Shown here: positions 9,180 through 62,629 of the stretch, piece by piece
Numbering within the stretch: position 1 is the first letter of the stretch
Layout of the letters: every line of letters begins with the position of its first letter
NCBI GenBank assembly: GCA_016188965.1
Contig: JACPGT010000001.1
Span: 1-62,766, forward strand
DNA: 62,766 bases
Direction of reading: 5' to 3'
Source: Microcaldota archaeon
GTDB taxonomy: Archaea > Micrarchaeota > Micrarchaeia > Norongarragalinales > Norongarragalinaceae
Notes under the pieces: model-generated
What the model was told of the DNA's origin: nothing
Databases searched by the model: none
Seen by the model: only the letters and a program-made list of their open reading frames with translations
Position numbers and translations under genes: made by a program

Positions 9180-9320
9180 GCCCAGGGGGGGAGGATCGCA
9201 ACGGTCGCCCCGGGGAACCCAGGTTCGCACAAGCCGCTTGGCGCCTTGTGGAACCCGCAAGTCCTTCGGACCTGCTACGGTTCCCCCTGGCCCGCCCTGG
9301 GCCTCGCCCCTCCAGGGACT
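9180..9320. repeat. partial tRNA-Thr 3' copy plus hairpin element A
   Basis: Bases 9180-9202 (GCCC then a G run and AGGATCGCAAC) are an imperfect copy of the tRNA-Thr 3' end at 9341-9360. The 118-base insert that follows (from 9203) is over 90 percent identical over about 108 bases to the insert before trpG (36056-36165). It folds into nested hairpins: an outer GGGGAACC with GGTTCCCC, a middle GGTTCGCACAAG with CTTGTGGAACC, and a small AAGTCC-TTC-GGACCT hairpin. Both copies keep the conserved unpaired strings CCCAGG and CCCGCAAG. Confidence 0.8.
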
Positions 9321-9339
9321 AAAAACGAATCAGAAAAAA

Positions 9340-9411
9340 AGCCCCGGGGGAGGATCGAACTCCCGACTTCCTGTTTACAAAACAGGCGCTCTACCGCTGA
9401 GCTACCGAGGC
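9340..9411 (-). tRNA. tRNA-Thr (TGT)
   Basis: A 72-base cloverleaf on the minus strand. The acceptor GCCTCGG pairs with CCGGGGC (one G-U). A D-arm GCTCAGCGGTAGAGC, an anticodon stem CCTGT/ACAGG with loop TTTGTAA giving anticodon TGT, and a T-arm GGGAGTTCGATCCTCCC follow. The discriminator base is U, as in many archaeal tRNA-Thr. No intron. Both ends are flanked by partial copies of itself next to hairpin inserts. Confidence 0.93.
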
Positions 9412-9522
9412 ACGAAAGACGTTTGATGCGCAAGGACTATAGTGTTTTCTTTGGCGGTAGGCCGCCCCTTTCTTCTCCAAAAGAAAGGGGCGACCGCGTC
9501 TCTACCGCTGAGCTACTGGGGC
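9412..9522. repeat. hairpin insert plus partial tRNA-Thr 5' copy
   Basis: Bases 9500-9522 repeat the first 23 bases of tRNA-Thr with two mismatches. Between this copy and the real tRNA lies an 88-base insert with a perfect 12-bp stem, CGCCCCTTTCTT (9463-9474) against AAGAAAGGGGCG (9481-9492). CTATAG in the insert (9437-9442 region) is about 27 bases before the tRNA start on the minus strand, so the insert may now supply the tRNA promoter. The motif GGTAGG next to a hairpin and GACC also appears in the insert 3' of tRNA-Ser. Bases 9523-9725 hold no gene that I can see. Confidence 0.75.
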
Positions 9523-9725
9523 TTTTGAGCAAAACCATCGGTCTGGCAACGTGCGCGTTATCATCCGCTGGACTTGGTCGATGCCAAGTCTGCGCGTGCA
9601 GCCGCCCACGATGGCAAACTCCGCTACTTCTTTTTTTTTCTTTCTTTGAGCAGAGGGAAATACTTGTATCCTTGATGCTATTTATACGATTGAAAACAGC
9701 AGTTTCATGTAAAAGGTGAAACCCG

Positions 9726-33054: not shown

Positions 33055-33290
33055 ACGGACAATATGCCGGGATGACGTTTATCAGCATTTCTCCGATGCT
33101 GGGACCATGAAAGCGCAAGCGGCCTCAAACCCCGGAGACGAAACACGGCCAGCGTATTCGAAAAACGGATATCGCAAAAGACGACGGATAGGCGGATGCT
33201 CAAATCATTGCCACGCATAAGGAAAGGTCGGCCCGAAACGAATTCTTTTCAGCAGGACAAAAAACGCGCCCGTTTTGGAAAAACAAGCGC

Positions 33291-33535
33291 TTTAAAATCG
33301 TCCACTGCAACAATAAATCCCCCAAATGCCGGGGTGGCAGAATCACGGTCGGAACCGCGGGGAACCCAGGTTTGAAGCAAACCTTAGGAGGTTTGCTGCA
33401 TGCTGCAAACACCGAGTGTTTGCTCGCACCCCCCAGTTTCCGCATAAGTCCCAAAAAGGACTTATGGGACCCGCAAATTCAGCAAAATTTGCAAGGTTCC
33501 GTCAATCCTGACCCCTTCCTGCGAAACGTAGCCTC
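33291..33535 (+). repeat. duplicated tRNA-Ser promoter and 5' end, followed by a four-hairpin insert
   Basis: TTTAAAATC at 33291-33299 and the 17-base GCCGGGGTGGCAGAATC at 33328-33344 copy the tRNA-Ser promoter (33536-33544) and 5' end (33573-33589), with identical 37-base spacing. The 17-base block is identical. The following insert has four hairpins: 33376-33397, 33405-33423, 33443-33466 and about 33474-33491. It keeps the strings GCGGGGAACCCAGG and GGGACCCGCAA that also occur, around different stems, in the inserts at 9203 and 36056. The truncated tRNA copy still has a promoter and could drive transcription of the insert. Confidence 0.78.
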
Positions 33536-33572
33536 TTTAAAATCAGCTCCTGCCAAAGAATAATTCCCCAAT

Positions 33573-33696
33573 GCCGGGGTGGCAGAATCCGGTAACGCGC
33601 TAGACTCGAGGCCATTTCTCTTTGTTAGTTTGGGAGAAAACCAGCGAGCCATCTAGTGGTCTTCGGACCTTCCGAGTTCAAATCTCGGCCCCGGCG
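33573..33696 (+). tRNA. tRNA-Ser (CGA) with intron
   Basis: Acceptor GCCGGGG pairs with CCCCGGC, discriminator G. The anticodon stem CTAGA (33600-33604) pairs with TCTAG (33652-33656). The loop C-T-CGA-G gives anticodon CGA. A 40-base intron (33611-33650) follows position 37. A long variable arm GGTCTTCGGACC and T-arm GAGTTCAAATCTC confirm a serine tRNA. The intron position is the canonical archaeal bulge-helix-bulge site. A TATA-like TTTAAAATC starts 37 bases upstream. Confidence 0.9.
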
Positions 33697-33798
33697 TATT
33701 CATCTTTCAATCCGCAAAAACAAGACTCGGGGGATCGGGGTAACGTAGGACTAAGGGGCGCTCCCCTTGGTCCCGGTTGCAAATCTCGGCCCCGGCGT
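33697..33798 (+). repeat. insert plus duplicated tRNA-Ser 3' end
   Basis: The 19 bases CAAATCTCGGCCCCGGCGT at 33780-33798 repeat 33679-33697 exactly; just upstream the copies differ (CCCGGTTG against CCGAGTT). Between them is about 82 bases with an AAGGGG-CGC-TCCCCTT hairpin and a GGTAACGTAGGAC string reminiscent of the insert 5' of tRNA-Thr. A T-rich run (TTTTTTCTTTT) after the second copy could be the tRNA terminator. Confidence 0.72.
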
Positions 33799-33850
33799 TT
33801 TTTCTTTTCATTCGCCTAAAGCGCAAGCGTTTTGCTGGTCCAACCGCACA

Positions 33851-34580: not shown

Positions 34581-36008
34581 ATGAAACCGCCAAACGCAGG
34601 CACCTCCGCAAGCCACGCCGCAATTTCGGATAGCGGGTTCCTGGGCGCGCGTTCCGGCTTTTCCTCGCAACCGTTGGATCTTTTGGACCCGTTAAAGGCC
34701 TTCGAGCGGCTCTACACGGAGTGCGAGCATTGCTTCCTGTTGGAGTCGTTCGAACAGGACGGCACGCTGGGGCGCTATTCTTATCTGGGCTTCAACCCGG
34801 AGACGAGAGTCCTCATCAAGGACGGCATCATCCGCGTCGGGACGGAGGAACGCGAAGAAGACCCATTCTCGTTTCTCAAGTCATACACCAAGACGTCGGA
34901 CCGCAAGGGTTTCCGCGGCGGCCTCGTCGGATACCTGGCCCACGACGCAATCCAATACGTCGAGGACTTCAAACCCAAGCGCGGCACGTTTGCCGACATG
35001 GAGTTCGGACTCTACCTGGACGGAGTCGTCTTCGACCACCTACAGCACTCGGCACGCTACGTGACGGCCGGAAAAGACCGGATGGACGAATTGAAAAGCC
35101 TCCTGGTACAAACGGAGGCACCGGATGACGGGAACGACGAGATGGACGCCAAGCTCTTCGAACCGTTCGTCAAGCAGGATGCCTTTTCCGATTCCGTGCT
35201 CAAGGCGCAGGAGCGCATTGCCGCCGGCGACGCGTTCCAAGTCGTTCTGTCCCGCAAGTTTCCCGTCCGCATCAAAGGCAGCAAAATGCCGTTCTACCGC
35301 CAGCTTCGGCAGACCAACCCGTCCCCGTACCAGTATTTCCTGAAGATGGGCAAGCGGGAAATCATCGGCTCAAGCCCCGAGATGCTGGTGCGCGTGGAAA
35401 ACCAGACAGCAACCACGTTTCCCATCGCCGGGACGCGCCCCCGCGGCCGCAACCCGGCCCAAGATGCACAGCTAGAAGCAGAGTTGCGGGCCGATGCCAA
35501 GGAAAATGCGGAACACGCCATGCTGGTGGATCTAGCGCGCAACGACATCGGCCGCGTCTGTAAGCCCGGCACGGTCAAAGTCTCGGCGTATGGCCAGGTC
35601 AAGAAGTTTAGCCACGTGCAACACCTGGTTTCCGAAGTCTCCGGACAGCTGTTCGGCACCAGCACCGACGCGCTCAAATCCGTCTTCCCCGCCGGCACAT
35701 TATCCGGCGCGCCCAAACTATCGGCGCTCAAGATCATCGACCAACTCGAACCGCAACCCCGCGGCCCGTACGGCGGCGCCGTTGGCTTTCTGTCGCTGGA
35801 CGGATCGTGCGATTTTGCCATCAGCATCCGAACGCTCTTCTGCGACGGCGACACGGCGTTCGTTCAGGCCGGCGCCGGCATCGTGAAGGACTCCGACCCG
35901 AAGGCCGAATTCAAGGAAACAGAATACAAAGCACAAGCCCTCCTTGATTGCTTGAAACCGCAAATGGAAGAAAAGGGAAAAACAAAAAACCGCATTGGCA
36001 CGATGTGA
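34581..36008 (+). CDS. trpE: anthranilate synthase component I
   Basis: A 475-residue chorismate-binding enzyme. It makes anthranilate from chorismate with ammonia from TrpG. The N-terminal Trp-binding motif LLES (FLLESFEQDGTLGRYSYLG) and the C-terminal catalytic FPIAGTRPRGRNP and DLARNDIGRVCKPGTVKV blocks are present, so feedback inhibition is probably retained. It heads the trp operon with its own TATA box. The stop is five bases before the false trpG start at 36014. Confidence 0.96.
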   Translation: MKPPNAGTSASHAAISDSGFLGARSGFSSQPLDLLDPLKAFERLYTECEHCFLLESFEQDGTLGRYSYLGFNPETRVLIKDGIIRVGTEEREEDPFSFLKSYTKTSDRKGFRGGLVGYLAHDAIQYVEDFKPKRGTFADMEFGLYLDGVVFDHLQHSARYVTAGKDRMDELKSLLVQTEAPDDGNDEMDAKLFEPFVKQDAFSDSVLKAQERIAAGDAFQVVLSRKFPVRIKGSKMPFYRQLRQTNPSPYQYFLKMGKREIIGSSPEMLVRVENQTATTFPIAGTRPRGRNPAQDAQLEAELRADAKENAEHAMLVDLARNDIGRVCKPGTVKVSAYGQVKKFSHVQHLVSEVSGQLFGTSTDALKSVFPAGTLSGAPKLSALKIIDQLEPQPRGPYGGAVGFLSLDGSCDFAISIRTLFCDGDTAFVQAGAGIVKDSDPKAEFKETEYKAQALLDCLKPQMEEKGKTKNRIGTM

Positions 36009-36013
36009 AACTC

Positions 36014-36181
36014 ATGGCTCCGCGGATTTTGGTATTGGACAACTTCGACTCCTTGGTCGCCCCGGGGGAACCCAGGTTCGCACAAGCCGCTTGGCGCCTT
36101 GTGGAACCCGCAAGTCCTTCGGACCTGCTACGGTTCCCCCTGGCGCGCCCTGCGCCTCACCCCTTCCTGACGTGATTTGAC
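36014..36181 (+). repeat. duplicated trpG start plus hairpin element B
   Basis: Bases 36014-36052 encode MAPRILVLDNFDS, a near copy of the trpG start (36182-36220, MSPRILVLDNFDS). The 39-base copies have nine mismatches: five codons differ, four of them synonymously, and the last 20 bases before the final codon position are identical. Element B (about 36056-36165) is over 90 percent identical to element A at 9204. The false start opens a 54-codon frame through the element ending at 36175, seven bases before the real ATG. Without the insert trpE and trpG would be five bases apart. Confidence 0.82.
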
Positions 36182-36754
36182 ATGAGCCCAAGAATTCTCG
36201 TATTGGACAACTTCGACTCGTTCACCTACAACTTAGTCCAGCTGTTTCAAGTGGCCGGCGCGGAGTGCCTCGTCTTCCGCAACACCGCATCATACGAACA
36301 GGTACTGCGGACCAAACCGGATGCCATCATCATCTCGCCCGGACCCGGAACCGTGGAAAAACCCAAGGACTTCGGCGTATGCGCCCGCGTCATCCGCGAA
36401 CTGGACGTGCCCCTGCTGGGCGTCTGCCTGGGCCACCAAGGCATCGCCTACGCGTACGGCGCCAAAATCGTACGAACCACGCCGGTGCACGGAAAGACAA
36501 GCCAAGTCCTGCACGACGGCAAAGGCATTTTCCAAGGCGTCAAAAATCCGCTCCTCGCGGCGCGCTACCACTCCCTCGTCGTCGATCCGGCCACCGTGCC
36601 GGACGTCCTGGAAGTGACGGCCCGCACGCCGGACGGCCAAATCATGGCATTGCAACAAAAACAAAAGCCGCAGTACGGAGTCCAATTCCACCCCGAATCG
36701 TTCATCACCGAAGACGGCCGCAAAATGGCCGATAACTTCCTCAAGCTGGTCTAA
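36182..36754 (+). CDS. trpG: anthranilate synthase component II (glutamine amidotransferase)
   Basis: A 190-residue class I amidotransferase supplying ammonia to TrpE. The catalytic triad is complete: Cys in LLGVCLGHQGIAYA, and His and Glu in QFHPESFITEDG. The start at 36182 matches the family N-terminus (RILVLDNFDSFTYNL); the copy at 36014 is a decoy. The next gene begins immediately after the stop. Confidence 0.96.
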   Translation: MSPRILVLDNFDSFTYNLVQLFQVAGAECLVFRNTASYEQVLRTKPDAIIISPGPGTVEKPKDFGVCARVIRELDVPLLGVCLGHQGIAYAYGAKIVRTTPVHGKTSQVLHDGKGIFQGVKNPLLAARYHSLVVDPATVPDVLEVTARTPDGQIMALQQKQKPQYGVQFHPESFITEDGRKMADNFLKLV

Positions 36755-38529: not shown

Positions 38530-39851
38530 ACCCGAAAGAAGAACCCGCGGAAAGGAAAAACGGATACTTCGGCCCGTACGGCGGCCGCTTCGTTCCCGAA
38601 ACGCTGGTCGAGCCGCTGCGCCAGGTCGAGGAGGCGTATGAGCGGGCGAAGAAGAACCCGCAATTCCAGGCGCGCTTTCAGCAATTGCTGCGCGAATACG
38701 CCGGACGGCCCAGCGAATTGTATTTCGCTGAAAACCTATCCTTGCGGACGGGCCGGCGCATTTACCTAAAACGCGAAGACTTGCTGCACACCGGATCGCA
38801 CAAGATCAACAACGCGTTGGGCCAAGGCCTTCTGGCCAAAGCCATGGGCAAAAAGCGCGTCATCGCGGAGACGGGAGCCGGCCAGCACGGCGTTGCATCG
38901 GCCACGGCCTGCGCCTTGCTGAAGATGCCGTGCGTCGTGTACATGGGATCGGAAGACGTCGAGAGGCAGAAATTGAACGTCTTTCGAATGAAACTGTTGG
39001 GCGCAGAAGTGGTGCCAGTTGAATCCGGTTCCAAGACGCTCAAAGACGCCATCAACGAGGCATTGCGGGATTTCTGCGCGCATCCGGACAGCTACTACCT
39101 CATCGGCTCGGTCGTAGGGCCTTCGCCGTACCCGGAAATGGTGCGCGACTTCCAACGCGTCATCGGCGATGAGACCAAGGAGCAAATATTGCAGAAGGAA
39201 GGCCGACTGCCGGATGCAATCGTGGCCTGCGTCGGCGGCGGCAGCAACGCCATGGGATTGTTCTATCCGTTCGAGGACGATGCCGGCGTGAAGAAAATCG
39301 GCGTGGAGGCCGCGGGCGCCGCATCTATCGTCAACGGCAAAGTCGGCGTCCTGCATGGCGCCAAAACAAAAATTCTACAAACCAGGGACGGCCAAATCGA
39401 GGGCACGCATTCCATCTCGGCGGGATTGGATTACGCCGGCATCGGGCCGGAACATGCGTATTTTGCCGATGAAGGCATCGTGCAGTACGTTCCGGCGGAC
39501 GATGCCGACGCGCTCGAGGGCGTCCGACTTTTGAGCGAGTCGGAAGGCATCATTCCGGCGTTGGAGTCGGCGCACGCCGTAGCGTTCGGCATCCGGTACG
39601 CGAAAACGCTTCCGGAAGGCGCGATCGTCGTCATCAATTTGAGCGGGCGGGGAGACAAGGACGTGCCGACACTCATGCAACACTGGAAGGGGGCGAGGAC
39701 GACGGATGTCCAGGGGGAAACCGCGTTGCCCCCGGGGATCCGGGCGGACAAGGACGTTCCCACATTAATGGAAAAACTTGGCTTGGAAAAAACGGAAGTC
39801 AAAGAAAAAACGAAATCTTTTGATGTGAAGGAAAAAGTTGAAACCGCTTGA
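38526..39851 (+). CDS. trpB: tryptophan synthase beta chain with a C-terminal insertion
   Basis: A 441-residue TrpB1-type subunit joining indole and serine. The PLP lysine lies in [13 protein letters not shown], the phosphate-binding loop is [10 protein letters not shown], and the end motif is [10 protein letters not shown]. The family normally ends soon after GRGDKD. Here DKDVPTLM occurs twice (residues 377-384 and 408-415), separated by 23 residues encoded by a repeat-like insert, and a Lys/Glu-rich tail follows. The frame is kept, so the enzyme is probably active, but the surface near the C-terminus is altered. Confidence 0.95.
39654..39770 (+). repeat. in-frame insert in trpB flanked by 24-base duplications
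   Basis: GACAAGGACGTGCCGACACT.. (39654-39677) and GACAAGGACGTTCCCACATT.. (39747-39770) match at 20 of 24 bases; all four differences are synonymous, so both encode DKDVPTLM. The 69-base insert between them (39678-39746) is a multiple of three and contains GGGGGAAACCGCGTT, which is also on the reverse strand of the insert at 5274-5356. A GGGGG..CCCCC pairing gives a short hairpin. Confidence 0.8.
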
Positions 39852-62520: not shown

Positions 62521-62629
62521 GCTCTGTTCGTCTAGACCGGTCAAGGATTCCAGACTCTCAATCTGGCATTCGAAAACCGACTGCCAAAAGAGCTATCTGG
62601 CGACCCGGGTTCAAATCCCGGACAGAGCA
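62521..62629 (+). tRNA. tRNA-Glu (CTC) with intron
   Basis: Acceptor GCTCTGT pairs with ACAGAGC, discriminator A. Anticodon stem CCAGA (62550-62554) pairs with TCTGG (62596-62600), with loop C-T-CTC-A and anticodon CTC. A 34-base intron (about 62561-62594) follows position 37 and contains its own TGGCA...TGCCA hairpin. T-arm CCGGGTTCAAATCCCGG. A CTATAAAA TATA box (62484-62491) is about 30 bases upstream. The repeated ATCTGG at both intron edges makes the exact splice point ambiguous by homology. Confidence 0.9.

Follow-up and report, generated by a model that had tools for sequence, protein, structure and literature searches.

The nearest tRNA precedent for the locus described here is the tRNA-Thr(GGU) gene of Caldiarchaeum, where a mobile element is reported to separate a 5′ fragment (nucleotides 1-27) from the reconstituted tRNA downstream of it (PMC3293823). 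The reported case concerns one tRNA and one 1.9-kb insert with a recombinase-like gene. Insertion with a long, variable target duplication is known for restriction-modification genes (Nobusato et al., 2000, as cited in PMC3031569), and transposition of tRNA introns for the Thermoproteales (Fujishima et al., 2010, as cited in PMC4090602). The permuted tRNAs of Thermofilum and of a red alga are joined at position 59/60 (PMC3218864), and partial tRNAs are common beside integrations of about 9-23 kb (PMC9897764).

The gene studied here encodes tRNA-Thr(UGU) and lies in the window, the whole 62,766-nucleotide stretch of DNA that was analyzed, which is contig C14 of genome G000 (1.37 Mb, 21 contigs), from a groundwater archaeon. 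Among named relatives, the nearest are groundwater MAGs assigned to Candidatus Micrarchaeota. The 5′ side of the gene carries one small non-coding hairpin element, R1, and the 3′ side another, R2; the two have very probably inserted independently, each duplicating one of the gene's ends. Unlike the reported Caldiarchaeum case, the inserts here are tiny and non-coding, occur at both ends of the gene and recur at many genes, and the window gene has acquired no new intron. Searches of open-licence PubMed Central by title and start of abstract (on Micrarchaeota tRNA introns or repeats, partial tRNA duplication with mobile elements, palindromic repeats with DPANN, and long target duplication) returned no description of this hairpin family.

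A tRNA gene nested between copies of its own ends

On the minus strand, the locus opens with a copy of the tRNA 5′ end. An insert of 84 nt separates this copy from the intact tRNA-Thr, and a second one, of 120 nt, leads on to a copy of the tRNA 3′ end. The intact gene (9411-9340, anticodon TGT) is normal by both ARAGORN and Rfam (69.1 bits), uninterrupted, and followed directly by a run of seven T; the elements lie beside it. Its outer 5′ copy (9522-9496) is truncated in the D-arm, has one extra D-stem base and matches 9411-9386 over 26 nt at 92% identity. The insert on this side (9412-9495) is composed of R1, with a stem at about 9460-9495, and an A-rich linker. The insert on the other side (9203-9322) holds R2, of which 9203-9311 matches other copies in the genome. 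It is followed by the outer 3′ copy (9202-9181), which is truncated at the T-loop and carries three additional bases, one of them in the loop and the others in the stem; together with its flank to 9162, this copy matches 9360-9323 over 41 nt at 78% identity. Scored against the gene's own ends, the 5′ and 3′ copies reach 18.5 and 12.5, respectively. An Rfam scan of the locus found nothing above threshold except the tRNA itself, and the two outer pieces combined contain no anticodon arm. The original prediction, that a tRNA-Thr is nested between partial copies of its own two ends, is thus borne out by ARAGORN, Rfam and the repeat alignments, and the outer fragments do, as it remarks, differ slightly from the inner tRNA.

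The two inserts meet the outer copies in the same way. The GGGGCGACC end of R1 (read on the plus strand) abuts the 5′ copy, and the GGGGCGACC end of R2 abuts the 3′ copy. The sequences adjoining both fragments can pair (CGGTCGCCCC with GGGGCGACCG) because one element end is present twice, pointing outwards. Upstream of the 5′ copy, another hairpin-rich sequence occupies 9523-9630 and terminates in TTTTGCTCAAAA. Similar sequence immediately precedes the tRNAs L001, L005 and L017 as well as the outer 5′ copies at L002 and L007, and represents a further dispersed repeat.

Orthologous tRNA-Thr genes are found in G001 (contig C10) and G002 (contig C36), next to the same sugar-phosphate isomerase gene, and neither has a fragment within 600 nt. 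Both window fragments therefore arose in this lineage, unless each of the two relatives has lost them.

Short hairpin elements with one fixed end

The elements are short, dispersed and non-coding, and the inserts mostly measure about 40-235 nt. R2 matches 26 places in G000, itself included, three of them at full length. The two further full-length copies share 96% identity with it; one lies at the start of trpG and the other beside another tRNA. Relatives of R1 are present in G000 and across the order, and R1 recurs at other tRNAs and, at C1:390468, at the 3′ end of a protein gene, where the repeat measures 31 nt. Its predicted fold is a single long hairpin (z -5.4), and among 22 copies pair-keeping double changes occur in 4 of 12 consensus pairs; covariation in the terminal part was read by eye only, because MAFFT misaligns that part. 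The folding z-score of R2 is -4.1, and a minimal R2-like copy (z -1.1) folds no better than its own shuffles. R1 is a single hairpin, and the ends of R2 form no clear inverted repeats.

At nearly every site listed, the truncated copy directly adjoins one type of element end, and the opposite end of the element points towards the intact gene. The abutting end occurs as GGGGCGACC, GGCGACC, GGGGATCC, GGTCCGG or GGTTCCGG, and as GGCAAGGC in other genera. Duplications vary in length (about 25-79 nt) and have a fuzzy left boundary, and the target sequences directly after the shared element end are unrelated to one another, with no shared att core. With its ends oriented in this way, the element at each site looks as though it had entered a gene close to one end and duplicated the stretch from the break outward.

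Target duplications of MITEs are usually a few bases long. No Cas1-like integrase, reverse transcriptase (RVT_1) or Y1 transposase was found in any of five genomes, which are 71-90% complete, and no autonomous or coding version of the element was found in about 835 kb, where direct repeats spaced 450-6000 nt next to element ends were sought. As these five incomplete genomes gave no candidate genes, a casposase, target-primed reverse transcription and a Y1 transposase of the IS200/IS605 or REP kind were set aside as movers. The elements resemble small non-autonomous prokaryotic repeats such as MITE and REP sequences (compare PMC2229807) in being short, structured, dispersed and without coding capacity. 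They differ from MITEs in their long target duplication, and the search for Y1 transposase in the five genomes yielded no helper. Long, variable direct target repeats around the insert, recognized by comparing relatives, are shared with restriction-modification insertions; by the cited account, what sets the present elements apart is a non-coding hairpin of 40-235 nt, a location at the ends of archaeal tRNA and protein genes, and one fixed end.

The same process at protein genes

Element insertion also extends to protein genes. An unbiased search counted 40 close direct repeats in 392 kb and 10 in the window, versus one in each of three local shuffles of the 392 kb. By inspection, about 15 of the 40 and 6 of the 10 enclose hairpin inserts, and the majority of the remainder resemble repeats within coding sequence. 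When the whole window was scanned for such repeats, five families emerged, four of them of the element-insert type. For instance, a copy of R2 (36055-36173, plus strand) lies between two copies of a trpG-like gene start (36002-36054 and 36174-36222). The outer copy still codes for nearly identical first residues. Another example, within 39648-39773, is a protein gene at which direct repeats of 33 nt enclose a related hairpin insert (39681-39740). Elsewhere, the duplication spans 34 perfect bases at C1:38909, 45 at C1:347490, 29 at C12:24800 and about 31 at C1:390468. Most junctions at protein genes are exact after the element end. Of 22 protein-type sites, chosen by inspection and judged by reading, 17 have the gene end in the intact copy (a stop or an ATG, with 180 or more open codons), compared with 492 among 3000 places drawn at random.

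Two species have such an element at the start of the same gene (G000:C1:38909 and G001:C6:128346), and the element sequences differ. At two loci G000 and G001 share the element-bearing gene, yet each fragment resembles the gene of its own genome, which would require gene conversion or more than one round of insertion.

The protein genes bear directly on one alternative, namely that the fragments are remnants of integrase-mediated integration into tRNA att sites from which the element body has been lost. The ends and T-loops of tRNAs are usual places of integration, and the partial tRNAs known beside archaeal integrations (PMC9897764) fit this scenario. However, the same short elements adjoin protein-gene ends of unrelated sequence through the same end, so att identity cannot explain them, and inserts of such length leave no room for an integrase gene. 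Past integration of this kind is improbable as the origin of the fragments.

Fragments of tRNA ends across genomes

A census covered 114 tRNA genes from five Micrarchaeota genomes (27, 31, 25, 5 and 26 genes), comparing the ends of each gene with its own flanks at score thresholds of at least 13 and at least 12. Own-end fragments scoring at least 13 accompany 31 of 228 tRNA ends (9 at the 5′ and 22 at the 3′ end), and the lower threshold raises this to 33 of 228; with the flanks reversed as a control, none of the 228 ends reached 12. Counted as 5′ plus 3′ fragments, G000 has 4+8, G001 2+7, G002 2+6 and G008 1+1, and none occurs among the 26 genes of G009, a member of the same family. The tRNA model search overlooked a further tRNA, at C1:116977, which likewise has a copy of its 5′ end.

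The majority of loci carry a fragment on a single side. Ten tRNAs in G000 bear fragments, seven of them on one side only. Those flanked on both sides are the window tRNA-Thr, an Ala gene (C1:303588) and the window gene starting at 33573. The last (33573-33696, plus strand) is a second nested tRNA and contains an intron-like insert. It lies within 33269-33827 between long flanking duplications, the 5′ side being present at 33269-33349 and 33513-33593 and the 3′ side at 33671-33724 and 33771-33827. Upstream of the Ala gene, the 5′ copy occurs twice in tandem, with a separate hairpin after each, which is a case of repeated insertion at one site.

The truncated copies tend to be altered close to the junction. 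One or two extra T-loop bases, about three bases from the element end, are present in 21 of 24 tRNA 3′ copies (23 scripted and that of the window added by eye; one weak 5′ row from G002:C32 was left out), three of the 21 needing a compensating stem deletion. The copies without an extra base are G001:C12:19255, G001:C8:76214 and one at G008:C16. Two copies in G006, with a different element end, have the same extra T-loop base, and several 5′ copies have an extra D-arm base. Junctions at protein genes are mostly exact, so the extra T-loop bases look peculiar to tRNA. They perhaps reflect selection against a spare half that competes in folding.

Apparent introns in the T-loop

In order-level relative G019, five tRNA genes (L274, L276, L277, L278 and L296) appear to be broken in the T-loop after GGTTCAAA or GGTCCAAA, close to position 59/60. 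The inserts start with the R1 end GCCTTGC, and the missing 3′ part of the tRNA resumes about 80-170 nt later. One gene in G020 (L275) is like these cases. Across 29 genomes the T-loop-insert pattern matches only in G019 (4 places) and G020 (1), and its reverse matches nowhere in the 29; a Lys gene with GGTCC was found apart from the pattern search. The exons of all six genes rejoin, by sequence, to complete tRNAs with a normal T-arm, which suggests that the inserts would be removed by splicing. Downstream of L276 lies a second 3′ copy, whose T-loop is one base longer. For G019, only 21 tRNA matches were obtained although it is given as 91% complete, probably because the standard model misses interrupted genes.

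Several tRNA genes have inserts resembling archaeal introns, and other copies of R1 lie in apparent anticodon-loop introns in G007, G008 and G015. Within the window, the tRNA at 62521-62629 probably contains an archaeal intron, an insert of about 35 nt that separates its anticodon arm from its T-arm. The likeness of the inserts across several tRNA genes of G019 and G020 recalls the intron transposition of the Thermoproteales; the window tRNA-Thr differs in being uninterrupted, with the element beside it. The permuted tRNAs of PMC3218864 share the T-loop as break point. Unlike the window locus, they are reported with their halves in reverse order and no intact copy left.

Could the outer pieces themselves be functional, either as a regulatory leader and trailer or as components of a tRNA that is split or spliced? 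Besides the extra T-loop bases of most 3′ copies and the apparent T-loop introns carrying the same element ends in the six G019 and G020 genes, this reading draws on T-runs of at least four, which follow 18 of 24 distal copies versus 11 of 24 proximal ends; the difference is not significant (p 0.065), and as a sign of transcripts reaching the distal copy it is suggestive only. Against a function stand the orthologous tRNA-Thr genes that do without the pieces, the seven-T run straight after the inner tRNA, and the pieces themselves, which are mutated and have no anticodon arm. A functional role is very improbable. Split, trans-spliced or permuted tRNA was rejected as a description of the window locus, given the missing anticodon arm and complementary flanks that are the same element end twice outward.

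Probable independent insertions at the two ends

The original prediction had allowed either two independent insertions or the entry of a tRNA-carrying unit into an older tRNA gene. The former is supported: the two inserts are different dispersed repeats, most fragment-bearing tRNAs in G000 are one-sided, the fragments copy the neighboring tRNA's own end, and the orthologous loci of G001 and G002 have neither fragment. According to the latter, the outer fragments are the two halves of an older tRNA-Thr gene, parted when a unit with a complete tRNA entered it. The slight divergence of these pieces from the inner tRNA and the pairing of their adjoining sequences would suit such a history. However, the halves together would have no anticodon arm, the pairing is explained by the doubled element end, and the same elements duplicate the ends of protein genes in an identical structure. 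The one-sided cases and the plain gene in relatives led to rejection of the older host, and this history has only a very small chance of being correct. The probability of an assembly artefact, conceivable for a metagenome assembly with repeats, is negligible, as the same structure recurs at many genes in four assemblies and neither outer piece is identical to the inner gene.

With dispersed hairpins, long target duplications, one precise end, preserved gene ends and empty sites in relatives all observed, the best explanation is that the locus is part of a lineage-wide process in which short hairpins insert with long target duplication. The process is genome-wide, which goes beyond what one locus could reveal. 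Each insertion would have broken the tRNA-Thr gene near one end, in the D-arm on one side and in the T-arm or T-loop on the other. The duplication would then have run from the break as far as the gene end or beyond, leaving the intact gene to the left of the element and the truncated copy beyond its right end. Two widely staggered cuts followed by fill-in, made by an enzyme acting in trans, could produce this outcome. A gene stays whole only when insertion occurs near its ends, hence the nested picture; survival may be restricted to such insertions, and selection may be the reason for the small insertions in the spare tRNA pieces. The T-loop insertions and the resemblance of some fragments to the gene of their own genome are not predicted by the best explanation. 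It is also weakened by the failure of the searches to find a mobilizing enzyme or a coding version, by duplications of varying length with a fuzzy left boundary, and by the fragment-free tRNA genes of G009.

Implications for tRNA gene evolution

It is tentatively proposed, as a possibility more doubtful than probable, that the hairpin family acts as a mobile proto-intron. Duplicated tRNA ends, produced in the D-arm and T-loop, would supply a spare exon, disarmed by one or two extra T-loop bases and later serving as the sole 3′ exon. Such a path would lead to T-loop introns like the apparent ones of G019 and G020, which have the same element ends; tRNAs permuted at this break point may have had a similar origin. 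For annotators, partial copies of tRNAs and of gene starts in these genomes are probably insertion relics rather than split genes. The loci offer observable intermediates for the origin of archaeal tRNA introns, fragments and permuted genes, and indicate that a short element can repeatedly hit essential single-copy tRNA genes without destroying them.
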